Shown here: piece by piece, positions 27,648 through 40,977 of the stretch
Layout of the letters: every line of letters begins with the position of its first letter
Position numbering within the stretch: position 1 is the stretch's first letter
DNA from: Chloroflexota bacterium
GTDB lineage: Bacteria > Chloroflexota > UBA6077 > FW602-bin22 > CADDYW01
Direction of reading: 5' to 3'
Assembly (NCBI GenBank): GCA_021324795.1
Contig: JAJPIK010000030.1
Location: 186,001-250,000, forward strand
DNA length: 64,000 nucleotides
Notes under the pieces: generated by a model
Told to the model about the DNA's origin: nothing
What the model saw: only the letters and a program-made list of their open reading frames with translations
The model's database searches: none
Made by a program: the position numbers and the translations under genes

Positions 27648-29312
27648 ATGGCCACTCTACCAGCGCACGCCCCCGCTGTTACCAAGCGGAACGTTGCCGA
27701 GTTTATCATCGCTCAGCTCGGATTGTGGGGCGTTCAGCAGATCTTTGGCGTGCCCGGTCGGAGCATTCTTGGCATTCTCGACGCGGTGCGTCGCCAGGAT
27801 GCGATAGGTTACATCGAAACGAGGCAGGAAGAAGCAGCCGCGATCATGGCTTCCGCCTATGCGAAGCTGACCGGTCGCCTATCGGTCTGCCTTGGCTCAT
27901 CCGGCCCAGGTACGACGAACCTGCTGACTGGTCTCGTCGACGCTCAGTTCGATGGCGTGCCAGTGCTCGCGCTGTGCGGCCAGGTTAGTCGAAGCGTATC
28001 AGGCCGCGGCGCTTACCAAGCACTCGATCAGCACGCGATTTTCGAGAGCTGCTGCACGTTCAATCACGACCTCGCCGACCGAAGCCAAGTTCCCGAGCTG
28101 CTCATGCTTGCTAGTAAGACGGCGATTGAGCAACGCGGAGTTAGCCGTCTGGGTATCCCCGGAGATCTGGAACAGCAGACGATTGGCGAGACCGTGATCG
28201 GGCCAGCCGGACACTTGGTGACAGAGCAATGGGCAGCACCTCCTCAGAGTATTGCCGAAGCTGTGGAGATGCTCGCTGGAGCCCAGCGACCAGCCATTCT
28301 AGCAGGCTGGGGTGCTCGCAATTGCCGAGACGTAATCACGTGCTGTGCCGAGCTCTTTGACGCGCCCATCGCTACGACCTGTCGAGCAAAAGGTCTATTG
28401 ACCGACGATCATCCCCTGGCTTTGGGGGTTGCCGGTCGCTTCGGTAGTTCACTTGCCGACGACGTGATCCGTCATGCCGACGTTCTGCTCGTCGTCGGGT
28501 GCTCGCTTTCGGAGAACACGACCGAAGGTTGGAGTCTAATCTCGAAAGACACTCGAATTGCCCAGATCGATCTCTCGCCCGAGAATATTGGACGTAACTA
28601 TCCTGTTACCCTGCCCATGGTTGGCGATGCCTTCCTCACCTTGGACCAGATCACCCGACAAGCAATGCCGAACCATCATCCCGATTATCGCAAGCAAATC
28701 GAGGACCGCAAGCGGGATTGGATCGCCCGAATTGACCAGAAAGCGGAAAGCGATGCCTGCCCGATCCTGCCACAACGGGCAATTCGTGAGTTATCCAACG
28801 TCTGCGCCGATGACGCGATCATCGCCCTCGACGTCGGCAACCATGCTGTCTTCTTCTGTCAGCAGTTCCGCGTGCGCAATCAGACAGTCGTGACGTCCGG
28901 TCACATGGGGGTGCTTGGATTCTCAACTCCGGCCGCGAACGCTGCCCAGCTCGCCTTCCCGAATCGTCAGGTTATCGCTCTTTGTGGTGACGGCGGATTC
29001 AGCGCAATTATGGGCGAATTTCTCACTGCCGTGCAGTACAAACTGCCAATTACCGTTGTCGTTTTGAACAACGGCGAATTCGGTATGACGCGGAGCGAAG
29101 AGGAACACGATCAGTTCAGTCCGGCCGGCTTTTACACTGGTTTGGCGAGTTGCAACTTCGCCGCTTTTGCCAGGGCATGTGGCGGCCATGGTGCTCGGGC
29201 GACGAAACCTGAAGAGGTTCACGATACTCTCGAACAAGCGTTGGCGATGAACACACCGTCGCTGGTTCAAATCGACATAAATCCAGACGAGCGGCCAACG
29301 TTCCAAGCGTAG
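27648..29312 (+). CDS. Thiamine diphosphate enzyme, pyruvate oxidase (PoxB)-like
   Basis: 554 residues with the three domains of the acetolactate synthase/pyruvate oxidase family. The catalytic Glu is in TRQEEAAAIMASAYAKLTG near residue 60, and the ThDP motif GDGGFSAIMGEFLTAVQYKLPIT...NNGEFGM runs from about residue 447. GEF/LP details favour PoxB over acetolactate synthase, and no IlvH partner is present. Either pyruvate oxidation or another 2-oxoacid reaction is possible. GAGGTGAGGAAG precedes the ATG. Confidence 0.8.
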   Translation: MATLPAHAPAVTKRNVAEFIIAQLGLWGVQQIFGVPGRSILGILDAVRRQDAIGYIETRQEEAAAIMASAYAKLTGRLSVCLGSSGPGTTNLLTGLVDAQFDGVPVLALCGQVSRSVSGRGAYQALDQHAIFESCCTFNHDLADRSQVPELLMLASKTAIEQRGVSRLGIPGDLEQQTIGETVIGPAGHLVTEQWAAPPQSIAEAVEMLAGAQRPAILAGWGARNCRDVITCCAELFDAPIATTCRAKGLLTDDHPLALGVAGRFGSSLADDVIRHADVLLVVGCSLSENTTEGWSLISKDTRIAQIDLSPENIGRNYPVTLPMVGDAFLTLDQITRQAMPNHHPDYRKQIEDRKRDWIARIDQKAESDACPILPQRAIRELSNVCADDAIIALDVGNHAVFFCQQFRVRNQTVVTSGHMGVLGFSTPAANAAQLAFPNRQVIALCGDGGFSAIMGEFLTAVQYKLPITVVVLNNGEFGMTRSEEEHDQFSPAGFYTGLASCNFAAFARACGGHGARATKPEEVHDTLEQALAMNTPSLVQIDINPDERPTFQA

Positions 29313-29381: not shown

Positions 29382-32201
29382 TTGGCTTTTCGGGCCGCCT
29401 CGACCGTCAATACGTCGGACGACGATCGCCCAATAGCGGAGGCAAAAACGGGCGATCGTCGCTTTCAAGATCAATTTCAACATCAATGGGAGGCGAGTGC
29501 ACTTACTCTTCTCCTCCTCTTCACCGCCTATGCGCTGCGCACCTGGCGTCTTGGCAGTCAGAGTTTCTGGTGGGACGACGCCTATTCGACGATGGTGGCG
29601 AGTCGCTCTCTTAGCGACATTGTCGCGACGATCGCCCGAGAGGACTATCACCCACCGCTGCATTACTTTCTGCTCCACTACTGGATGCGATTGGTTGGTC
29701 TAAGCGAGTTTTCTCTCCGCTACCTCTTCGTGGCCGCTGGAGTGCTCACTGTCGCGGTTGGCAGCGCGGTTGGTCGTCGTCTGGTCGGCCCACGCGCCGG
29801 AGTGATCGTCGCGGTAGTTTTCGCTTTTTCACCTTATCTTTTCTACTACTCCCAAGAAGCGCGACCGTTTGCCTTAGTCGCATTTTGGGGGATTTTAAGC
29901 CTCTACTTTTTCATCCGAGCAGTCGATGATCCGAGTTGGCGCCACTGGCTCGGCTACACTGCCGCTCTTGCCCTGGGCTTCTATGACCTGTATTACGCGC
30001 TGTTCTTGCCCTTCGCCTTCGGCGGCTGGCTTCTCCTCACGCGACCGACCCGCTGGCGAGAATTCGGACGCTGGCTCGTCGCTACTCTCGCCGCGTTCGT
30101 GCTCTTTTTGCCCTGGGTTCCGATCTTTCTCGGCCGGGCCAGCGTCTGGTCGTCGACCATGCCACCGGACAACGGGCCGGCTAAGATTGTCTACTGGTCG
30201 TGGCTCGACTTCTTCATCGGTCTTCCCACTCTCGATCTGTATGGTCAACCGCTTCCGATGACCCTGCTGAGCCTCGGGGCTGTGCTGACCTTCGCAGGGA
30301 TTGCCTTTATCTGGCGGTGCCGGTCGAAGCAGCCACTCCTCATTCTACCGATTCTCGCCTTTGCTGCACCGTTACTGGCAATGGCAGTGGTTTCAGCGCT
30401 TAAACCGATCTTCCATCCACGGTACGCTATGCCCGCGGCACCCGGCTTGTATCTCCTGCTGGGTATCGCGATTACCATGACTACTGACCGGGACAGGCGA
30501 CGGTGGCGTATCCTGGGTTCAGCCCTTGCCGCCGTCAGCGCATTATCGTTCGCTTATGGGCTTGCCCACCTCGAATTCGATCCCACCTATGCGCGCGACA
30601 ACTACCGCGGCGCGCTCGCCTACGTCAAGGGAATTGAAGCCCCGGGCGATACGATCATCGACAACGCCATTCCGCCAGTCTGGTACTACTATCACGGACC
30701 GGCGCCGACAACCTACTTTCCTTCGGGCGACTACAGCGAAGCACACGTCGTCAAAGGCCTCAACAGTCTGACTGCAAATCACCCACGTCTCTGGTACATC
30801 CAGAATCTTCTCATTCCGAGCGACCCGGATAATTTCGTGGAAACCCAGCTCCGCCTTCACGCGCAGCTCATCCACGAAGCCTGGTTTGGAGCCATTCGTG
30901 TTCAGCTTTGGGGAATCCCCCATCCGGACGTCTTCAGCACGACGACCTTCACCCCGGTCACTCTCAACTTGGCAGACGGACTAACGATTGATGGTTATGC
31001 GATGAACGGTGAGGCTAAGGGAAGTGAAACAGTAGACGTGGAGCTCGACCTACAAACGCGACAAACACCCTCGACCGACGATGGTTTTTGGGTTGGAATC
31101 GACGACCAGCAAGGAAACGAGTGGGGTCGTGCCGACGTGCGACCGCGGGATGCAAATCTCCGTCTGAGTAGCGGCTGGACGGCCGGAGAGAGAGTCGTCG
31201 TGCGCTTCGACTTGCCCATCGCCCCCGGCACGCCCCCGGGCCACTATCAGCTCGTCGCCGGCGCCTATCGCTTGTCTGATCTGGCCGGGGTGAACGTGCT
31301 CGACGCCAGTAACCATCCGATCGGCCAGCGTGCGCCTCTCGGCACTGTCGAGGTGATCCAGGCCGACCACGCCCAAACCGATCCCAAGCTAACTAAGCAA
31401 TACGATTCCGCGGTAGCTCCCGGTCTGATCCTGGCCGCAGCCGAACTTCGCCCAACCACGCTGGCGCCGGGTGACCAACTTCCGGTGACTCTGCTCTGGC
31501 GTTCGACACGTCCGCTGAACGGGATCTCGGCCAGCCTCAAGCTGGCAAGCGCTTCCGGGCAAACGCTCCTCGCGGCCAGTGCGCCGGTTGGCGGAGCTTA
31601 TCCAAGCACTCGCTGGACGGTTGGGGATCTCATCCGTGAGCAGCGTACTCTGGTGCTTCCGGCGAACATCTCTGCCGGTCCGGCCGATGTACTGCTCGTG
31701 GTCAGTGGTAGTCCGCCGATCAAGCTGGGATCAGTTACCATTTTGGCGATCAATCGCTCGTTCAGCGCCAGCAAGCTTCCGACCGCAACCGACGTGAATT
31801 TCGGCGACACGATTGCCCTGGTCGGCTACGGCATATCCAGTCAGCAGGTAACCCCCGGCGGCCAGCTTACCGTCTCATTGGATTGGCACGCGCTGCGGGA
31901 AACCAAGCAGAGTTATCACGTCTTCGTCCATCTGCTCGACGCGCACAACCAAGTCTGGGCCCAGTGGGACGGCGTGCCCCACAATTGGACCTACCCAACG
32001 AGCGCCTGGGTGACTGGTGAGTATGTCCTCGATCAGCCAGTCCTCCAACTTCCCAATCGCGTCCCCGACGGCGACCTGACCTTAGAAATTGGCCTGTACA
32101 ATCCGACAACCGACCAACGTCTCCCCGCGTCGGATTCGTCCGGAAAGCTTGCTGACGACCGCTTTGTACTCGGACAGATCGCGGTGGCGAAGGCACACTA
32201 G
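29382..32201 (+). CDS. GT39-like membrane glycosyltransferase with large C-terminal domain
   Basis: 939 residues. The first 40 are cytosolic; about 10 membrane helices follow (residues 40-430). WWDDAYSTMVA near residue 64 holds the acidic pair of the first loop that binds the donor/metal, and REDYHPPLHYFLLHYW near residue 86 is typical of lipid-linked-sugar transferases (PMT/ArnT group). Residues 450-939 are extracytoplasmic and beta-rich, with repeated segments such as APGDQLPVTLLWRS and TPGGQLTVSLDWHA that suggest sandwich domains. TTG start with GGGGAG upstream. It converges with the selenoprotein gene; stop codons overlap. Confidence 0.85.
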   Translation: MAFRAASTVNTSDDDRPIAEAKTGDRRFQDQFQHQWEASALTLLLLFTAYALRTWRLGSQSFWWDDAYSTMVASRSLSDIVATIAREDYHPPLHYFLLHYWMRLVGLSEFSLRYLFVAAGVLTVAVGSAVGRRLVGPRAGVIVAVVFAFSPYLFYYSQEARPFALVAFWGILSLYFFIRAVDDPSWRHWLGYTAALALGFYDLYYALFLPFAFGGWLLLTRPTRWREFGRWLVATLAAFVLFLPWVPIFLGRASVWSSTMPPDNGPAKIVYWSWLDFFIGLPTLDLYGQPLPMTLLSLGAVLTFAGIAFIWRCRSKQPLLILPILAFAAPLLAMAVVSALKPIFHPRYAMPAAPGLYLLLGIAITMTTDRDRRRWRILGSALAAVSALSFAYGLAHLEFDPTYARDNYRGALAYVKGIEAPGDTIIDNAIPPVWYYYHGPAPTTYFPSGDYSEAHVVKGLNSLTANHPRLWYIQNLLIPSDPDNFVETQLRLHAQLIHEAWFGAIRVQLWGIPHPDVFSTTTFTPVTLNLADGLTIDGYAMNGEAKGSETVDVELDLQTRQTPSTDDGFWVGIDDQQGNEWGRADVRPRDANLRLSSGWTAGERVVVRFDLPIAPGTPPGHYQLVAGAYRLSDLAGVNVLDASNHPIGQRAPLGTVEVIQADHAQTDPKLTKQYDSAVAPGLILAAAELRPTTLAPGDQLPVTLLWRSTRPLNGISASLKLASASGQTLLAASAPVGGAYPSTRWTVGDLIREQRTLVLPANISAGPADVLLVVSGSPPIKLGSVTILAINRSFSASKLPTATDVNFGDTIALVGYGISSQQVTPGGQLTVSLDWHALRETKQSYHVFVHLLDAHNQVWAQWDGVPHNWTYPTSAWVTGEYVLDQPVLQLPNRVPDGDLTLEIGLYNPTTDQRLPASDSSGKLADDRFVLGQIAVAKAH

Positions 32202-33685
32202 GATGAATGCAATTGCAGCGTGCCAACCGCTCCATTCAACAGATCCACCACCCGAATCAGATTGTTGTTGGTGTCAGCGACGTACAAGCGGCCGCTAGCT
32301 ATGCTGACTCCGGACGGCTCACGAAAACGCGCCAGGGGGCCAAGGCCATCCTGATCTCCCGGCTGTCCGTTTCCAGCAAAGGTTATCGAGGTGCGCGTCC
32401 GTGGATCGATCCGTTTGACCTTATTATTGTAACTGTCGGCAACGAGCAACACGCCTTCGTCCCAGGCAACGCCAAGCGGATGCTGCAGACGCACGACGTC
32501 GCCGGTGCCATCGATGTCGCCAAACTCAAATAATCCCACGCCAACGATCGTTCGCACCTGCCCACTGGCACCGAGGTCGACCTCGCGAATCGAACTCGTT
32601 TCCGCATCGGCGACGTAGAGTTCGTTCGGTCCCATGGCCAAGCCGCTCGGCTGAGCGAACCAGGCTACCTCGCGAGATCCGTCCTCTAGTCCTTCGTGGC
32701 CGGTACCGGCAAACGGGCAAATGATCCCGGCTACCAGGTCGAGCGTCCAGATCTGGTGAAATCCCGCCATTGCAATGTAAAGCGTATCGTCTCGCAGAGC
32801 AACATCCCACGGCGAATTCAGCGGAAGGCCGCGCGCCGGTCCGCCACGATGAAAATGGGGGGCTTGCTCACCAGTGCCTGCCAGCGTCGTAACCTCGCGG
32901 GTAGTGAAGTCGATCCGGCGGATCGCGTGGTTTTCCAGGTCGGCAAGGTACAGCACGTCGTCGCCGATCGCCATCCCCTGGGGCGCCTGAAACCGCGCGG
33001 TTGCAAAATCACCATCCCGGAAACCCGGCTGACCACAGCCAATCGACTCTCGGATCACACCATCAAATCCAGTAACAATTAACAGGTTGTGGCCGGAGTC
33101 GGCGATGAAAAGCCGCTGACTCCGTGAATCAGCAAGAACCTTCCCCGGGAACAGGAGCGGCGACTCCCGCTCGAGAGTTTTCTCAAGACGAGTCGGAAGC
33201 GGCTGGTGGGTAAGCAAGCCTTTCCGCTCGAACTCGGCGATCATGTCAGCGACGACGTGATCGAGTTGCTGAAAGGAGATTTCGCCCTCATGCCGACCAA
33301 TCACCTTCCCAGCCGGATCGATGAAATAGACCGTTGGCCAGGCGCGTCCGGCGTACGCCTGCCAGACCCGAAAGTCGCGATCGTTGACAACCGGGTGTTC
33401 AATACCATAGCGCATAATCGCCGCGCGAAGATTTTCCGTCTCACGCTCGGCCGGAAATTTTGGTGAGTGAACACCGATCACCACAACCTCATTCGGATAC
33501 TTCCGCTCGACTTTCCGCAACTGCGGAAAGATGTGCATGCAGTTGATTCAGCAAAAGGTCCAGAAGTCAAGGATGACGATCCGCCCGCGCAGATCGGCCA
33601 TGTGCAATGGCCGCGTCACATTGAGCCAATCGAGTCCCGAGGGAAAATCCGGCGCACGGATGGAACCTAACCAGCGATCTTGCAT
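32198..33685 (-). CDS. Thioredoxin-NHL repeat selenoprotein (UGA read as Sec46)
   Basis: 495 residues if UGA at 33548-33550 is decoded as selenocysteine. Residues 1-145 are a thioredoxin-like domain: [35 protein letters not shown] and [12 protein letters not shown] with the cis-Pro. Relatives such as NHLRC2 have CCINC where this gene encodes C-UGA-INC, giving a U-x-x-C redox pair. Residues 150-495 form an NHL beta-propeller (repeats such as [39 protein letters not shown]). The ATG at 33685 has AGAGGAGG 6 bases upstream. The frame is intact otherwise and follows lacI by 24 bases. Reading from the next ATG (33538) would lose the whole active site. Confidence 0.85.
33511..33530 (-). promoter_or_regulatory. 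Bacterial SECIS-like hairpin
   Basis: On the minus strand a perfect 8-bp stem, CTTTCCGC and GCGGAAAG, closes the 4-base loop AGTT. The stem begins 17 bases after the UGA and the loop 25 bases after it, inside the window used by bacterial SelB-binding hairpins. A G in the first loop positions is a known requirement and is present. Confidence 0.7.
33548..33550 (-). other. In-frame UGA, predicted selenocysteine codon
   Basis: TGA at codon 46 of the thioredoxin-NHL gene, at the position where relatives have the second Cys of CCINC. Coding similarity continues without a break on both sides. Confidence 0.8.
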
Positions 33686-33709
33686 CGCATCCTCCTCTGA
33701 GAATCTCTC

Positions 33710-35071: not shown

Positions 35072-35173
35072 TCGCTCGCATTTCGTCGCGTGTCTTATCT
35101 TTCGCCGCCTGCTGACCGTCGTTTCCCCGGTCAGCCCGAAGGCTTGATTGGATGCTCTCTCTGGAGAGAAAGG

Positions 35174-36664
35174 ATGAATCAGATGCCAGGTCAGCGATCG
35201 AATTCCCTTTCGCGGCGCGCTCTGCTCAGGTTCACCGGAGCGATCACTCTCCTTGCCGTGACGCCTCTCGTCCAAGCTTGCTCGAGCTCCCCGGGAGCGA
35301 CGCCGCCTTCCGGTAGTGGTTCAGCCGGCGCGACCACCAGCCAGCCCACCGCAGCCAAACCGGCGGGCACCGCAGCCAGCGGGACTTCCGCGGCACCCGC
35401 GACGCAGGGAAACACGGCTTCCGGTGGTAAGCAAACCGTCGAGGTCTGGACCGGCTACGGCCAAGGCCGGATGGCAACTGCCCGCGAAGACGCGATCAAT
35501 CACTTCAACCAGACCAACCCTAAGTTCGAGGCCAAACACGTGCTCGTCCCCTGGGGGAACATCCACGACAAGGTGATCGCCGCGACCGCGGCCAAAAATC
35601 CCCCGGACGTCTATCGCGGTTGGTCCTGGATCGTTGGCACCGACGCCCCGATCGGCGGCTTGACTCAGCTCGACGACTACATCAAGGCGGAGACAAACTT
35701 CAATCTGGACGACTTTTGGCCGCCCACCCTGTACCAGATGAAGTATCAGGGCAAGATTTTCGCGGTCTCCTGCTCGACGATCGTCAATCTTCTTTTTTAC
35801 AATAAGGACCGTATGCAGCAGGCCGGTCTCGACACGACCAGCCTGCCCACCGATCTGGAGGGGTGGGAAGCCTACGGCAGCAAGATGATGGAGATGAATG
35901 GCGGCCGACTCGCCAAGATTGGCTTCATTCCGTTCATTCCTCCCTCGGATGCCTACAGTCTCTTCAACTGGGGGGCAGCGTTTGGCGGCACGTTCTACAA
36001 CGATGATACCTCGAAAGTGACGGCGAATGATCCGGCGAACGTTAAGGTCTTACAATGGTTCAAGACCTACGCCGACAAGTACGGCGCTGCCAACATCCAG
36101 GCCTTCGTCTCGAGCTACGGCGGGAACAACTTTGGTCGAAACACCCCCGATGGGGTCTACTATACCGGCCTGCTGGCGATCTGGAACATCGGCTGCTGGA
36201 ACTACAATGACATGAAGGAGTATGGGCCCAAGGTCAACTTTGGGGTGACCAAGATGCCCATGCCGAAGGGAGTCCAAGGAAAACCCGGTCAGCTCAACGC
36301 GAACATGTATCTGGTTCCGAAGGGTGCCAAGAATCCCGAGGGCGGATTCGCGATCTGCAAGTTCATGTCGAGTGATCCCTGGGTCGCCGCGCACTTCGAG
36401 GGCGTCCCTGACTCGGTCCCTCCATCACGACAGAGCCTTGCCACCAGTGGTGAGGTGGCGAAGCTCGCCCCATGGTTTAGCTTGATGATCGACGCGCTGC
36501 ACCAAGCGCTGCCTTTCCCGAGCATGCCCGGCGTGAATCCGTACTTCCAATCGCTCAGCGAGGCCGTGCAGTCGGTGCTTTTCAAAAATGCGAATCCCCA
36601 ACAGGTGCTCGATGAGGTCACCAAGAAGACCCAACAGGACGTCGACAAGGCGCTCAAGAAGTAG
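35174..36664 (+). CDS. ABC transporter extracellular solute-binding lipoprotein (sugar type)
   Basis: About 496 residues of binding-protein family 1. The N-terminus has a twin-arginine-like SRRALLRF, a hydrophobic stretch and the lipobox VQAC, followed by a Ser/Gly/Pro/Ala-rich linker (residues 35-75), so it is a lipoprotein anchored on the outer face of the membrane. The mature part (VEVWTGYGQGRMATAREDAINHFNQTNP) is typical of MalE-like proteins. ATG at 35174 was chosen because the signal peptide begins here. Confidence 0.92.
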   Translation: MNQMPGQRSNSLSRRALLRFTGAITLLAVTPLVQACSSSPGATPPSGSGSAGATTSQPTAAKPAGTAASGTSAAPATQGNTASGGKQTVEVWTGYGQGRMATAREDAINHFNQTNPKFEAKHVLVPWGNIHDKVIAATAAKNPPDVYRGWSWIVGTDAPIGGLTQLDDYIKAETNFNLDDFWPPTLYQMKYQGKIFAVSCSTIVNLLFYNKDRMQQAGLDTTSLPTDLEGWEAYGSKMMEMNGGRLAKIGFIPFIPPSDAYSLFNWGAAFGGTFYNDDTSKVTANDPANVKVLQWFKTYADKYGAANIQAFVSSYGGNNFGRNTPDGVYYTGLLAIWNIGCWNYNDMKEYGPKVNFGVTKMPMPKGVQGKPGQLNANMYLVPKGAKNPEGGFAICKFMSSDPWVAAHFEGVPDSVPPSRQSLATSGEVAKLAPWFSLMIDALHQALPFPSMPGVNPYFQSLSEAVQSVLFKNANPQQVLDEVTKKTQQDVDKALKK

Positions 36665-36699
36665 ACAGAGGAGTCAAGGGCGAGCGGAAGGAGAAGCCA

Positions 36700-37584
36700 A
36701 TGACCCGCAGGGAATGGCAGCGTCTGCGCTGGGGGGTGTTCTTCATCTCCCCGTGGATTATCGGCTTTCTTGCTTTCACGCTCTATCCGATCGTCGCCTC
36801 ATTCGTGTTCAGTTTCACTGATTTCAACGCGATCAACTTTTCACCATCGTGGGTCGGGCTGGACAATTACACGTCACTCTTGACGGATGACAACCGGTTC
36901 TGGGTATCCCTTCAGAACACGCTCACCTACGCTGGTATCCTGATCCCGGTGGCGACCATCTTCAACGTCTTCACCGCCGTGCTCCTGAACCTCGACGTTC
37001 GCGGTCGTTCGGTCTACCGAACGATCTTTTTCCTACCGGTTCTTGTTCCGTCGGTCGCCGCGGCCATGACCTGGGTCTGGATCCTGAACCCGGACCGTGG
37101 CCTGATCAACGGCCTGCTCTCCTACGTTGGCATCCCCGGGCCGCTCTGGCTCGCGTCACCATCTACCGCCCTGCTGTCGCTCGTTCTCATCGCGATCTGG
37201 GGTGGAGGTCAAGCAATTGTGATCTACCTGGCCGGCCTGCAAGACATTCCGCGTCACCTCTACGAAGCCGCCGAGATCGACGGGGCCAATGCTTGGAACC
37301 GGGCCATTCACGTTACCGTTCCCCTGCTGACGCCGCAGGTTCTCTTCAATGTGATTACCCTGCTGATCTTTTCCTTCCAAGCGTTTGCCGAGCCATTCAT
37401 TATGACTGGCGGCGGTCCCGCCGACTCGACGTTGCTCTACGCCCTAAATCTGTACCAGCGTGCCTTCCAGGACCTCAAGATGGGTTATGCGTCGGCGATG
37501 GCCTGGATTCTTTTCTTGCTCATCCTGACTTTGACCTTGCTGGTCTTCCGGATGGCGCAACGCTGGGTCGTGTACGAGAGATAG
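36700..37584 (+). CDS. ABC transporter permease, MalF type
   Basis: A 294-residue permease with six membrane helices. The cytoplasmic EAA loop, YEAAEIDGANAWNRAIHVTVPLL near residue 188, contacts the ATPase. The N-terminus WGVFFISPWIIGFLAFTLYPI is typical of carbohydrate uptake permeases of the CUT1 family. It follows the binding protein by 35 bases. No ATPase gene is present in the operon. Confidence 0.92.
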   Translation: MTRREWQRLRWGVFFISPWIIGFLAFTLYPIVASFVFSFTDFNAINFSPSWVGLDNYTSLLTDDNRFWVSLQNTLTYAGILIPVATIFNVFTAVLLNLDVRGRSVYRTIFFLPVLVPSVAAAMTWVWILNPDRGLINGLLSYVGIPGPLWLASPSTALLSLVLIAIWGGGQAIVIYLAGLQDIPRHLYEAAEIDGANAWNRAIHVTVPLLTPQVLFNVITLLIFSFQAFAEPFIMTGGGPADSTLLYALNLYQRAFQDLKMGYASAMAWILFLLILTLTLLVFRMAQRWVVYER

Positions 37585-37589
37585 ACCGC

Positions 37590-38504
37590 ATGGCAAAGGA
37601 CGTCGTTGCTCGAGATCTGAACCAGACCGATCTTTCCGCCCAAAACCGGATCAGTACGGGGCGTCTTGCCCGCACTCGGATTCGCCAGTTGGCGCAGAGC
37701 GTCGCCACTCACGTTGTCCTGCTTATGCTTGGCATCACGTTCATGCTGCCGTTCCTCTGGATGGTAACCAGCTCGGTCAAGCCAGACGCGGAATTGTTTC
37801 AGATCCCGCCCACCTTGGTTCCTCAACACTTCCAACCCACGAACTACCTCGAAGCGGTCAGACAGATCAGCTTTGCGGTCTATTTGAAGAACAGCGTCGT
37901 CTACGCCTTGGTAGCGATGCTCGGCGCAATTCTGTCCAATGCCCCCATCGCCTATGGCTTTTCCCGGATTCGCTGGAAAGGCCGGGGCGTTGTCTTCATC
38001 GTCGTCATCTCCACGATGATGTTGCCTTTTCAGGTGCGGATGATTCCCCTCTACGTCGCGTTCGGCCAGATTGGCTGGCTCGATAGCTTGCTGCCGCTGG
38101 TCGTCCCAACCTTCTTCGGCAACGCCTTTTTCATTTTCCTGCTGCGTCAGTTCATGTTGACTCTGCCGACCGACCTGGATGACTCCGCACGGATCGACGG
38201 CTGTTCCGAAGTTGGCATCTTTCGCCAAATCGTTCTGCCCCTCTCAAAGCCGGCGATCACCGTGGTCGCCCTCTTCCAGTTGATGTGGGCCTGGCACGAC
38301 TTCATCGGGCCGCTGATCTATTTGCGGGACCAGAATGGTTACACCCTCTCGGTCGGCCTTCAGCTCTACTTTACTCAACACGGTGCGGAATGGGCGTTGC
38401 TCATGGCCGCGGCGACAATGTTCACATTGCCGATGGTGATCGTCTTTTTCATCGCGCAGCGCGCCTTCATCGAGGGTATCGCGCTCACCGGCATCAAAGG
38501 GTAG
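37590..38504 (+). CDS. ABC transporter permease, MalG type
   Basis: About 304 residues and six membrane helices. The EAA loop reads DDSARIDGCSEVGIFRQIVLPLSKPA near residue 206. TFMLPFLWMVTSSVKPDAELFQIPP near residue 50 is characteristic of the second CUT1 permease. The ATG at 37590 lies 5 bases after the MalF-type stop; the open frame extends upstream inside that gene, but the upstream part is only a shadow. Confidence 0.92.
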   Translation: MAKDVVARDLNQTDLSAQNRISTGRLARTRIRQLAQSVATHVVLLMLGITFMLPFLWMVTSSVKPDAELFQIPPTLVPQHFQPTNYLEAVRQISFAVYLKNSVVYALVAMLGAILSNAPIAYGFSRIRWKGRGVVFIVVISTMMLPFQVRMIPLYVAFGQIGWLDSLLPLVVPTFFGNAFFIFLLRQFMLTLPTDLDDSARIDGCSEVGIFRQIVLPLSKPAITVVALFQLMWAWHDFIGPLIYLRDQNGYTLSVGLQLYFTQHGAEWALLMAAATMFTLPMVIVFFIAQRAFIEGIALTGIKG

Positions 38505-38514
38505 GAGGGTTCTC

Positions 38515-40977
38515 GTGGCGATTATCTCTCAATCAACCAACAATTCCTCGTTGGCCACGGCCACACGCGATATAGCACGTCCTTGGAGCGAGCGAATCGA
38601 TCGGATTCGCCAGCGTTCGCTGGCCTTCGCCGACAGTCAGCCTCGGGGCGAGCGCCTGCGGCTGGTCACCGAGAGTTACCGACAAACCGAAGGTGAGCCG
38701 GTCATTCTGCGTCGTGCGAAAGCGCTCGCTCACGTGCTCGCTAATAACGTCGTTCGTCTCTACCCGGAGGATCGTCTCGCCGGTCTCCCTCAACGCTTCG
38801 TCTATCACACCGAGGCGCTCCACGCGTTCGATCAACGCGCTCAACTGTTTCGCTCGCTCGACTATCCCGAGCTGAGTGGCGGTCACTTCCCGCACGTCGA
38901 CAAGGTCGAGCCCGAGCTTCGGGAGTGCCTACGCTACTGGCAGGAACAGCCTTCGCCCCGGACAAGCGCGGGCGCCCGCTACCGCCCGGAGATCCGCAAG
39001 GCGGTGCAGCTCGGGGTGATTCAGGGCGGAGGGCTGTTTTCCGGTCACTGCGCGGTCAACTATCGAAAAGTACTCGCGGTTGGCCTCGAAGGTCTAAAGC
39101 AGGAGGCGCAAGGCCGCTTGCGGCAAGGCAACCTTGACGAACGCGGGAAGAATTTTCTCGCGGCAGTCCTGATCGTTTGCGATGCGGTAATCGCCTGGGC
39201 CGAGCGCTATGCCACGCTGGCCGAGCGATATGCTGAGCAAGAGACTGACCTCTTGCAAAAGCGGGAATACTTGGAACTGGCCGAAGTTTGCCGCCGAGTA
39301 CCAGCCCGGCCGCCACGCACGTTTCGGGAAGCGCTCCAAGCGGTCTGGTTCTTGATGCGAGCAATGGAAATCGAGCAAGGTGACGTGACCTCACTCGGTA
39401 TCTCACTTGGTCGGTTAGATCAATATCTCTTTCCGTTCTACCAGGCAGATCTGACCGCGGGCCGCGCTTCAGACCAGGAACTGCGCGAACTCTTCGAAGA
39501 GTTCTATCTGAAGTTTCACCGACCCTATTCCGACGCCCACATTATGGTCGGTGGCTTGAAAGAGGATGGCAGCGGCGAAGACGGAACCAACGCTCTGTCT
39601 TTCGAGATTCTGGACGTCGCACAGACTCACCGCCTCCTGATCGATCTGGGAGCGCGAGTCCATCGCGGCAGCTCGCGCGCGTTTCTGCGGAAGTGCGCCG
39701 AGGTGTCGGCATGCAACATCGGTTTTTCGGTCTTTGGCGACGAAGCGGCCATCACCTCGCTGATGCGAGTCGGCGTGCCCAAGGAGGACGCCGTGCGCTA
39801 CACGATTGTCGGCTGCGTCGAGACGATCATTCCCGGCGTGGCAGTACCGCGGACGATGGAGTACACAATCAATCTCGATAAGTGCTTCGAGCTGGCCTTG
39901 AACGATGGAAAGTGCCGACTCACTGGTGAGCAGCTTGGACCGAGGACCGGCGATCCCCGGCAGTTTACCGATTTCGCACGTGTGTTCCAGGCATTCACCC
40001 AGCAAGTCAACTACTTCACTGGCTTGGCCACGGAAATGGTAAAGATTGGCTGGGAAGTCAGTCCGGAGTTCGTGCCCGTGCCGTTCCTATCCGCCACCTG
40101 GGATGACTGCATCGCCAAGGCGCGCGACCTGACCGAGGGCGGGGCGCGGATCAGCACCAGTGGGGTCAACGACTGTGGCATCTCCACCGTTACTGATTCA
40201 CTGGCCGCGATCAAGTACCTTGTCTTTGACCAACACATCACCGACATGTCAACCTTGATCGATGCCCTCGATCGAAATTGGCAGGGTTACGATTGGTTGC
40301 GCGAGCGCGCTTTGGCAGCGCCGAAGTACGGGAATGCCGAGCCGTACGTCGATCAGATCGCCCGTGACGTCGCCCAAGTTCATTACACCGCACTCGAACA
40401 GCATCGGACACTCGACGGCGGCCGTTTCTGGCGGCTGATCTTTCAGATCAACGCGAATTGCGTGATCGGGTTGTCATCGCGCACGGCCGCGTCGCCAGAC
40501 GGACGATACGCTCAGGATCCCATTGGGATCTCCCTCTCACCCTCGGCCGGCCAAGACGTGAACGGTCCATACGCGGCCCTCGATTCGATTCTCGCCATCG
40601 ATCAAACATCGATCCCGGGCGGCGCGTCCTACATTATGGAGCTGAACTCCCAGCACATCTGTAAGGAGACCACCCCTAGTGAGATCGATGTCAACAAGCT
40701 CACTGACATCATTCAGTACTTCGTCGATCATGAAGGAGTAAACCTGGCAATTAACGTGCTGGATCCCGAGCCACTTCGCTTGGCAACTACTCTGCCGGGT
40801 CAATACGCTGGTCCCTCGGCACGGATGTATGGCCAGAGTCTGTATCTTGCTCAGATGGATCGACGGCTCCAGGAGTTTTTGATTGCGCGGACCGACCGCG
40901 AGCCGGCCCGGCAGCGACGATTTGGCTCGGAAAGTAAATCCGAACGTGTCGGACAGTCTCAAGCGACCAAAGCGTAG
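38515..40977 (+). CDS. Glycyl-radical-enzyme (PFL-like) family protein
   Basis: 820 residues with the pyruvate formate-lyase/diol dehydratase barrel. YTIVGCVETIIPG near residue 435 holds the thiyl Cys and the Glu of the C-x-E motif. The C-terminal segment ARMYGQSLYLAQMDRRLQEFLIART aligns with the glycyl loop RVSGYSAFFVNL...LQDEIIART, keeping the Arg, the Gly and the Ser but changing VSGYSA to MYGQSL. No radical-SAM activase is nearby. The reaction is unknown; a polyol or sugar-acid dehydratase is plausible given the transport genes. GTG start with AGGAGGG upstream. Confidence 0.82.
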   Translation: MAIISQSTNNSSLATATRDIARPWSERIDRIRQRSLAFADSQPRGERLRLVTESYRQTEGEPVILRRAKALAHVLANNVVRLYPEDRLAGLPQRFVYHTEALHAFDQRAQLFRSLDYPELSGGHFPHVDKVEPELRECLRYWQEQPSPRTSAGARYRPEIRKAVQLGVIQGGGLFSGHCAVNYRKVLAVGLEGLKQEAQGRLRQGNLDERGKNFLAAVLIVCDAVIAWAERYATLAERYAEQETDLLQKREYLELAEVCRRVPARPPRTFREALQAVWFLMRAMEIEQGDVTSLGISLGRLDQYLFPFYQADLTAGRASDQELRELFEEFYLKFHRPYSDAHIMVGGLKEDGSGEDGTNALSFEILDVAQTHRLLIDLGARVHRGSSRAFLRKCAEVSACNIGFSVFGDEAAITSLMRVGVPKEDAVRYTIVGCVETIIPGVAVPRTMEYTINLDKCFELALNDGKCRLTGEQLGPRTGDPRQFTDFARVFQAFTQQVNYFTGLATEMVKIGWEVSPEFVPVPFLSATWDDCIAKARDLTEGGARISTSGVNDCGISTVTDSLAAIKYLVFDQHITDMSTLIDALDRNWQGYDWLRERALAAPKYGNAEPYVDQIARDVAQVHYTALEQHRTLDGGRFWRLIFQINANCVIGLSSRTAASPDGRYAQDPIGISLSPSAGQDVNGPYAALDSILAIDQTSIPGGASYIMELNSQHICKETTPSEIDVNKLTDIIQYFVDHEGVNLAINVLDPEPLRLATTLPGQYAGPSARMYGQSLYLAQMDRRLQEFLIARTDREPARQRRFGSESKSERVGQSQATKA

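Follow-up and report, generated by a model that had tools for sequence, protein, structure and literature searches.

A gene on the reverse strand of a 64,000-nucleotide stretch of Chloroflexota DNA (contig JAJPIK010000030.1, positions 186,001 to 250,000; hereafter the window) almost certainly encodes a selenoprotein of the NHLRC2/SOQ1 type, in which a thioredoxin (Trx)-like domain precedes an NHL beta-propeller. The UGA at codon 46 would be decoded as selenocysteine (Sec, U) by SelB and tRNA-Sec, guided by a hairpin with an AGUU loop, to give a Sec46-Cys49 couple. The reading frame, the site, the homology, a covarying hairpin, the selenium machinery and the alternation of UGA with Cys codons among relatives were observed, and from these we infer that Sec is incorporated in the cell. 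The features on which this reading rests, including the candidate selenocysteine insertion sequence (SECIS), are as follows.

32198 to 33685, reverse strand: Trx-NHL gene, predicted selenoprotein of 495 amino acids with UGA read as Sec at codon 46; stop codon TAG
33548 to 33550, reverse strand: in-frame TGA, predicted Sec codon 46, from the translation and the codons of relatives
33539 to 33553, reverse strand: C-U-I-N-C active-site motif, residues 45-49, with U46-x-x-C49 at the Trx CXXC position
33691 to 33696, reverse strand: Shine-Dalgarno-like AGGAGG, 5 nt 5' of ATG 33685, read directly
33302 to 33613, reverse strand: Trx-like domain, from Pfam (PF00578, residues 25-128; PF13905, residues 34-128)
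32216 to 33166, reverse strand: NHL beta-propeller, about residues 174-490, from Pfam, homology and the model
33511 to 33530, reverse strand: SECIS hairpin of 8 bp, apical loop AGUU at 33522-33519, 25 nt from UGA to loop

A first-pass annotation, made from the letters of this DNA, had proposed that the frame from ATG 33685 is broken only by the TGA at 33548-33550. Translation with TGA as Sec bore this out, giving 495 residues, a single internal stop (33550-33548) and a final TAG at the 32198 end. The ribosome-binding site that it placed before the upstream ATG was also present, as AGGAGG at a spacing of 5 nt. It had warned that an ordinary gene caller would start at 33538 and drop the active site, and the standard list of open reading frames (ORFs) indeed held an ordinary ORF of 446 amino acids from ATG 33538 to 32198, from which the active site is lost. 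Because this call begins after the UGA, the Sec form is easily missed. When residues 1-49 were removed, Thioredoxin_8 and AhpC-TSA were absent from the Pfam listing.

The sequence was found to be continuous across the TGA, as had been claimed: both flanks align to SOQ1 (7djj, residues 10-486, E 5.7e-135) and to NHLRC2 (6gc1, residues 3-490, E 4.9e-116), and in the SOQ1 alignment the UGA lies under the second Cys of CCINC, where the annotation had put it. The motif CC(I/V)NC, which taken literally has Cys only, occurs here as its Sec variant C-U-I-N-C, and relatives carry CCINC at the same codon. An AlphaFold2 model (33-row alignment, Sec entered as Cys) reached a pLDDT of 95.3 and a pTM of 0.92 and placed the motif at the start of a Trx-domain helix (47-50); the NHLRC2/SOQ1 architecture, a Trx8-type domain and then the NHL propeller, was present. 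In pairwise comparisons of four genes, that of the window and those of its three nearest relatives (6 pairs), the ratio of nonsynonymous to synonymous rates (dN/dS) was 0.06-0.14 upstream and 0.05-0.19 downstream of the UGA, values that are rough because dS exceeded 1 in every pair but that point to purifying selection both upstream and downstream.

Relatives were pooled from GTDB contigs, genomes of the window's order and genomes of the phylum into 160 loci (L numbers below; genomes carry G numbers). The GTDB contigs were searched with six patterns, one of them with Cys written at codon 46, and the best 80 of 162 relatives were taken. The site was readable in 157 loci, the matches of L212, L219 and L220 not covering codon 46, and removal of identical proteins left 146 distinct ones, the window's included. 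Codon 46 was TGA in 64 of them, TGC in 60 and TGT in 22, with no other codon. An alternation of Cys and UGA at this codon, which the annotation had suggested as a check, is therefore plain (64 UGA, 82 TGC/TGT). A scan of 400 phylum genomes gave 80 matches at E <= 1e-60, 57 with one in-frame TGA and 23 without. In-frame stops occurred in the matches of 57 genomes, every time as a TGA at codon 46, which argues that its position is not due to chance; the other 23 comprise 20 with a Cys codon at the site and 3 whose matches do not cover it. The scan of 13 genomes of the order found a full-length match in 5, each with one TGA, and partial or distant matches only in the other 8. Among the best 80 GTDB contig loci, 11 carried UGA, all of them titled Chloroflexi, SAR202 or Dehalococcoidia, and UGA stood at the site in none of the 59 loci of that set that were neither labelled nor known as Chloroflexota, Ktedonobacteria and Anaerolinea being counted as known.

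Cys49 was kept in 146 of 146 distinct proteins. Residue 45 was more variable: the 64 Sec rows have Cys (59), Ala (3) or Gly (2), and the 82 Cys rows have Cys (76) or Gly (6). The alignment identifies U/C46-x-x-C49 as the conserved pair. The redox couple can probably do without Cys45, since Ala or Gly replaces it in 5/64 Sec forms and Gly in 6/82 Cys forms.

Two side observations concern other Sec-type sequences. Loci L195, L196, L199, L202 and L213-L218 form one group of Sec forms of 538-577 amino acids, 43-82 longer than the window protein, and the extra length resembles an insertion. Two small thioredoxin-like paralogues from the same order, at G007:C4:34586-34951 (forward strand, L045) and G005:C36:17486-17812 (reverse strand, L036), have one in-frame TGA each and are possibly another Sec thioredoxin.

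The first-pass annotation made no mention of the SECIS element found here. The bacterial SECIS model, in the available part of its description, has a loop of 3-9 nt, a stem of 4-16 bp, a G in the first two loop positions, a distance of 16-37 nt from the UGA and an energy <= -7.5 kcal/mol (PMC13188914). The window hairpin fits this model with its 4-nt loop, 8-bp stem, G in second position and 25-nt distance, and its energy was -12.0 kcal/mol for the best 18-26-nt piece and -13.8 for 46 nt. The loop after the UGA was AGUU in 60 and CGUU in 4 of the 64 Sec rows. When seven pairs were scored at fixed columns in the 64 UGA rows, 53 formed all seven, 6 formed six, L059 formed five and four rows formed three; the outermost pair of the window's 8-bp stem was kept in only 36% of UGA rows. 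In 57 distinct 48-nt UGA rows, 94.0% of 399 cells were paired. The covariation score was 0.317, compared with 0.160 +/- 0.014 in shuffled alignments (0/500 as high) and 0.055-0.131 for slid versions of the structure, and 32 cells were changed on both sides, compared with 9.4 in shuffles (0/500 as high). RNAalifold returned 6 pairs with a small covariation term, -0.74 of -7.33 kcal/mol.

Most Cys relatives differ in this region. By the 8-pair count, pairing reached 86.6% of positions across 55 distinct UGA rows and 37.3% across the 82 Cys rows, and the 57 nt that follow the codon had a mean energy of -15.1 kcal/mol in 13 UGA rows and -7.2 in 69 Cys rows. These comparisons indicate that a covarying SECIS element follows the UGA and that most Cys relatives are without it. 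The residues encoded over the stem were PQLR in 51 UGA rows, PALR in 4, SQLG in 3, PQLE in 2, AQLR in 2, SQLR in 1 and PQLG in 1, whereas many Cys relatives carry PDLK there, a pattern in which the stem is seen to constrain the encoded protein residues. A Sec-site scan of the window gave 7 candidates, of which only the known one was convincing, and model R1 run over the whole genome hit this locus alone (150 of 1958 first-look candidates scored).

That the UGA is a real stop, whether in a pseudogene, through a sequencing error or ahead of a gene that starts at 33538 without the active site, agrees with the ordinary 446-amino-acid ORF but is barely conceivable, given the same UGA in 64 distinct proteins and in 57/57 genomes with an in-frame stop, the purifying selection on both its flanks, a conserved hairpin after it that most Cys relatives lack, and the strong Shine-Dalgarno sequence before the upstream ATG. 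Pseudogene and sequencing error were considered and rejected.

All four genes that the annotation had asked to be sought, selA, selB, selC (tRNA-Sec) and selD, were found in the window genome (G000). SelB scored 352 bits (cut-off 242), tRNA-Sec 72.9 bits (threshold 47; called by ARAGORN as tRNA-SeC with anticodon tca), selA 565.7 bits and selD 386.6 bits. The selD match has one in-frame TGA and lies some 40 kb from the Trx-NHL gene, on the contig that contains the window:

G000:C7:177239-178165, reverse strand: selD (locus L223), about 8 kb before the window start, same contig

SelD is itself a UGA form, SHGAGUACKLG, and its UGA stands at what we take to be the usual Sec site of SelD. Its hairpin has the loop GUC 33 nt after the UGA, with G-U at the tip as in the Trx-NHL hairpin. 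UxxK is listed for SelD among prokaryotic selenoproteins in the available part of a recent survey (PMC13188914).

Contamination during binning was considered and rejected. SelD lies on the window's own 319-kb contig C7; in a tetranucleotide comparison that covered the selB and selC contigs, the first 20 kb of the selB contig correlated with the window at r 0.98 and two pieces of the selC contig at 0.964 and 0.979, the values for 20-kb pieces of the window against its rest being 0.979-0.980.

Across the phylum, selA was found in 56 of the 57 UGA genomes (all but G328) and in 263 of the 343 others; the Fisher p of 2.4e-5 is uncorrected for kinship, and we treat this contrast only as supporting. 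SelB was found in 54/57 UGA genomes, and in 30/30 when these are restricted to a completeness of 90% or more and a contamination of 5% or less; for tRNA-Sec the corresponding counts were 48/57 and 28/30. The tRNA-Sec scans scored 150 or 61 first-look candidates in each genome, so the absence of a call carries little weight; tRNA-Sec was missed in G003 and G006 even with 150 candidates scored.

It is highly improbable that the UGA is read as another residue, such as Cys or Trp, through a changed code or leaky read-through without Sec machinery. The identity of residue 46 is predicted, and relatives have only UGA or Cys codons there, so that insertion of Cys would be tolerable too. However, the window has 30 stop-to-stop frames of 300 codons or more, some of which are not genes, and 13 of them end in TGA, so UGA seemingly serves as a stop; the genome has all four sel genes, and a hairpin of the SECIS type follows the codon; and SelD carries UGA within SHGAGUACKLG. 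An alternative code was considered and rejected.

Several observations weigh against decoding of codon 46 as Sec in a thiol/selenol enzyme. The four rows L166, L167, L168 and L178, which are of the PALR type, pair only 3/7 fixed columns; when refolded, L166 gave a hairpin in a register shifted by one, and L168 and L178 folded otherwise within the 45 nt given. The number of double-change pairs, 4, was not significant (reached by 74/500 shuffles), and the structure slid by +1 tied with the proper one in double-change pairs (4) and pair types (11). The window hairpin alone was modestly stable (z -2.04; 11/200 shuffles as good). Among the 57 UGA genomes, selB had no match in 3, tRNA-Sec in 9 and selA in 1. 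The genomes with such a gap are all drafts of 110-690 contigs, but the tRNA-Sec misses include G171 and G301, both within the limits of 90% for completeness and 5% for contamination. Of 14 control genomes, 5 exceeded the threshold for tRNA-Sec, which makes a tRNA-Sec call alone weak, and 2 exceeded the cut-off for selB. SelA is common in the phylum (319/400 genomes), and G000 is a draft with an estimated contamination of 5.99%. Insertion of Sec in the cell, though very likely, is deduced from sequence. Finally, in the available part of its structure paper, human NHLRC2 is described as essential and of unknown function, and it failed to reduce insulin, which its authors took to mean no thiol-disulfide exchange (PMC6107167).

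The history of the site was examined on a tree of the 146 rows, built by a quick method (LG+G4, midpoint root) with the site and the SECIS-encoded residues excluded. The Sec/Cys label changed 7 times on this tree, compared with a mean of 47.8 for shuffled labels (0/500 as low), and the starred branches force at least 4 changes; such counts cannot by themselves separate gain from loss. All 64 Sec rows fall in one 77-row group (13 Cys), nested in an 80-row group (16 Cys) whose members all come from Chloroflexota titles or phylum-search genomes. The branches of the two groups are unstarred, with supports of 93 and 91, and the tree is rooted at its midpoint. It is therefore likely, though short of proof, that Sec was gained once, either inside a Chloroflexota group or close to its base. 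The tree also suggests several later returns from Sec to Cys.

Ktedonobacteria, a part of the phylum Chloroflexota, have both Sec and Cys forms, and four of their Cys rows form 6/7 SECIS pairs:

L078, 3136-3183, forward strand: predicted remnant SECIS, 48 nt from the Cys codon
L079, 3127-3174, forward strand: predicted remnant SECIS, 48 nt from the Cys codon
L083, 3136-3183, forward strand: predicted remnant SECIS, 48 nt from the Cys codon
L088, 3136-3183, forward strand: predicted remnant SECIS, 48 nt from the Cys codon

Outside the 80-row group 0/66 Cys rows do so, compared with 4/16 inside it; the Fisher p of 0.001 is too favourable, because three of the four rows are near-copies of each other in the tree. 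As we read their pairing, these hairpins are remnant SECIS elements left after a change from Sec to Cys. Such remnants have been reported in FdhA and a HesB-like protein (PMC1794560, in the part available), and Ktedonobacteria now offer a Sec-to-Cys series that includes them.

We propose the following mechanism. SelB and tRNA-Sec would decode UGA codon 46 as Sec, directed by the hairpin 25 nt downstream. Sec46 would replace the N-terminal Cys of the thioredoxin CXXC and form a U-I-N-C couple with Cys49. More tentatively, Sec46 may be the attacking selenolate, because it holds that CXXC position and Sec is usually placed there in UxxC selenoproteins; Cys49 might then resolve the reaction through a selenenylsulfide with Sec46, and the substrate might be reduced while bound in the cleft that separates the Trx domain from the propeller. 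The protein would then be a substrate-specific selenol enzyme in which the propeller selects the substrate. The CCINC motif of NHLRC2 sits in a cleft with the propeller that is thought to bind a protein ligand (PMC6107167, in the part available).

It is unlikely, though worth weighing, that Sec46 is real in a protein that is no thiol/selenol oxidoreductase and instead binds a ligand or metal or senses redox state, with the propeller as the working part. The lipocalin modification seen without SOQ1 is not reversed by dithiothreitol (PMC6107167, in the part available), which is in keeping with such a role. On the other side, Cys49 is kept in 146/146, the motif lies at the start of the Trx-domain helix (47-50) in the model, and many predicted selenoproteins resemble thiol oxidoreductases or carry UxxC/CxxU (PMC13188914, in the part available). 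We are evenly divided about a broader form of the oxidoreductase proposal, namely a phylum-wide selenoprotein family with one early gain in Chloroflexota and several losses to Cys, in which Sec marks the nucleophile of NHLRC2/SOQ1 (human Cys-90) in a selenol/thiol enzyme for a specific substrate rather than a general disulfide reductase. That Sec replaces a single one of the three motif cysteines, in 57 of the 80 strong-match phylum genomes, argues for reactive chemistry there. It points to the reactive residue in a family of unknown chemistry whose human relative, NHLRC2, is a disease protein, so that a mutant series could be made in bacteria and transferred to the human and plant proteins. 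If the broader proposal is true, NHLRC2/SOQ1 is an enzyme class with an essential, disease-linked human member.

The protein would add a family to the prokaryotic selenoproteome. A table of 119 prokaryotic selenoprotein families published in 2026 has no entry with an NHL domain or CUINC, as far as the available part of the paper goes (PMC13188914), and literature searches by titles and abstract starts found no paper on a Sec-containing NHL protein. The NHLRC2 paper, in its available part, chose relatives by CC(I/V)NC (PMC6107167), a choice that would miss Sec forms. It is nonetheless conceivable, if rather doubtful, that catalogues already list the Sec form by a name that covers only its Trx part, for example as the Sargasso Sea 'thiol-disulfide isomerase-like protein' (UxxC, Thioredoxin_8) or the 'Redoxin family protein' (UxxC), after a first sighting in metagenome fragments. 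The SAR202-titled loci L058 and L064 carry Sec forms, and SAR202 is largely marine. Moreover, pfam13905 with UxxC is given for MAK15852.1 (PMC9312934, in the part available), and the window protein matches the same Pfam family. However, these entries stand in the 2026 table with cd02966 and PF08534 and without an NHL domain, and 'NHL' occurs 0 times in the main text of its paper, as available (PMC13188914). The first-pass statement that no Sec form of this family had been described is thus upheld by the table and the literature and is softened by the two older Trx-only entries, compared by description only. As far as the searches go, the protein is a new Sec variant of the known NHLRC2/SOQ1 family, set apart from those two UxxC entries by descriptions only.

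The neighbours of the gene in the window, a LacI-type regulator, a mannosyltransferase-like protein and a thiamine pyrophosphate (TPP) enzyme, suggest no function. The three-domain TPP enzyme is near and convergent with the Trx-NHL gene both in the window (27648-29312, forward strand) and in the relative L054 (5002-6672, reverse strand). A gene for a DsbH/DUF255-type Trx protein follows the Trx-NHL gene in the same orientation in seven Chloroflexota loci, at a distance of 43-1660 nt. A Pfam check covered five of them, the other two being L061 and L067:

L056, 4580, forward strand: DsbH/DUF255-type gene, PF03190, from Pfam
L058, 4516, forward strand: DsbH/DUF255-type gene, PF03190, from Pfam
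L059, 4771, forward strand: DsbH/DUF255-type gene, PF03190, from Pfam
L104, 4570, forward strand: DsbH/DUF255-type gene, PF03190, from Pfam
L111, 4645, forward strand: DsbH/DUF255-type gene, PF03190, from Pfam

An eighth hit, in L205, has the opposite orientation, and none was seen in the remaining 149 of the 157 loci, many of whose flanks, at about 1 kb, are too short for a fair comparison; this neighbour is a weak lead on substrate or function. Elsewhere in the window, ABC transporter genes (35090-38504) directly precede a gene for a pyruvate formate lyase-like glycyl-radical enzyme (38515-40977, forward strand; PF02901 E 1.1e-148, Gly_radical E 2.2e-7).

Among known systems, human NHLRC2 (6gc1) shares the Trx-like domain and an NHL propeller of six blades (TM 0.93-0.94 by query length, with 40% identity in the fold alignment) and has CCINC at the CXXC position, residues 89-93 (PMC6107167, here and below in the part available). 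It differs in that its second Cys (Cys-90) corresponds to Sec in the Chloroflexota protein, and it has an extra C-terminal beta-stranded domain (PMC6107167) for which the 495-amino-acid protein has no room. The lumenal domains of Arabidopsis SOQ1 gave the best fold match (7djk, TM 0.95, 45% identity) and the best sequence match (7djj), but SOQ1 has HAD and transmembrane parts and CCINC (PMC6107167), whereas the window protein has neither part and has CUINC. The C-terminal part of DipZ from M. tuberculosis (2hyx) has a CINC-type Trx domain (E 2.1e-23, residues 11-165) but matches the Trx part only, and its motif is SCINC (PMC6107167). The bacterial Trx-fold UxxC selenoproteins (Sec-Trx, thiol-disulfide isomerase-like, Redoxin family and Prx-like thiol:disulfide oxidoreductase) likewise have UxxC in a thioredoxin-type domain, with a SECIS reported after the UGA, but no NHL propeller or CUINC is listed for them in the 119-family table (PMC13188914, in the part available).

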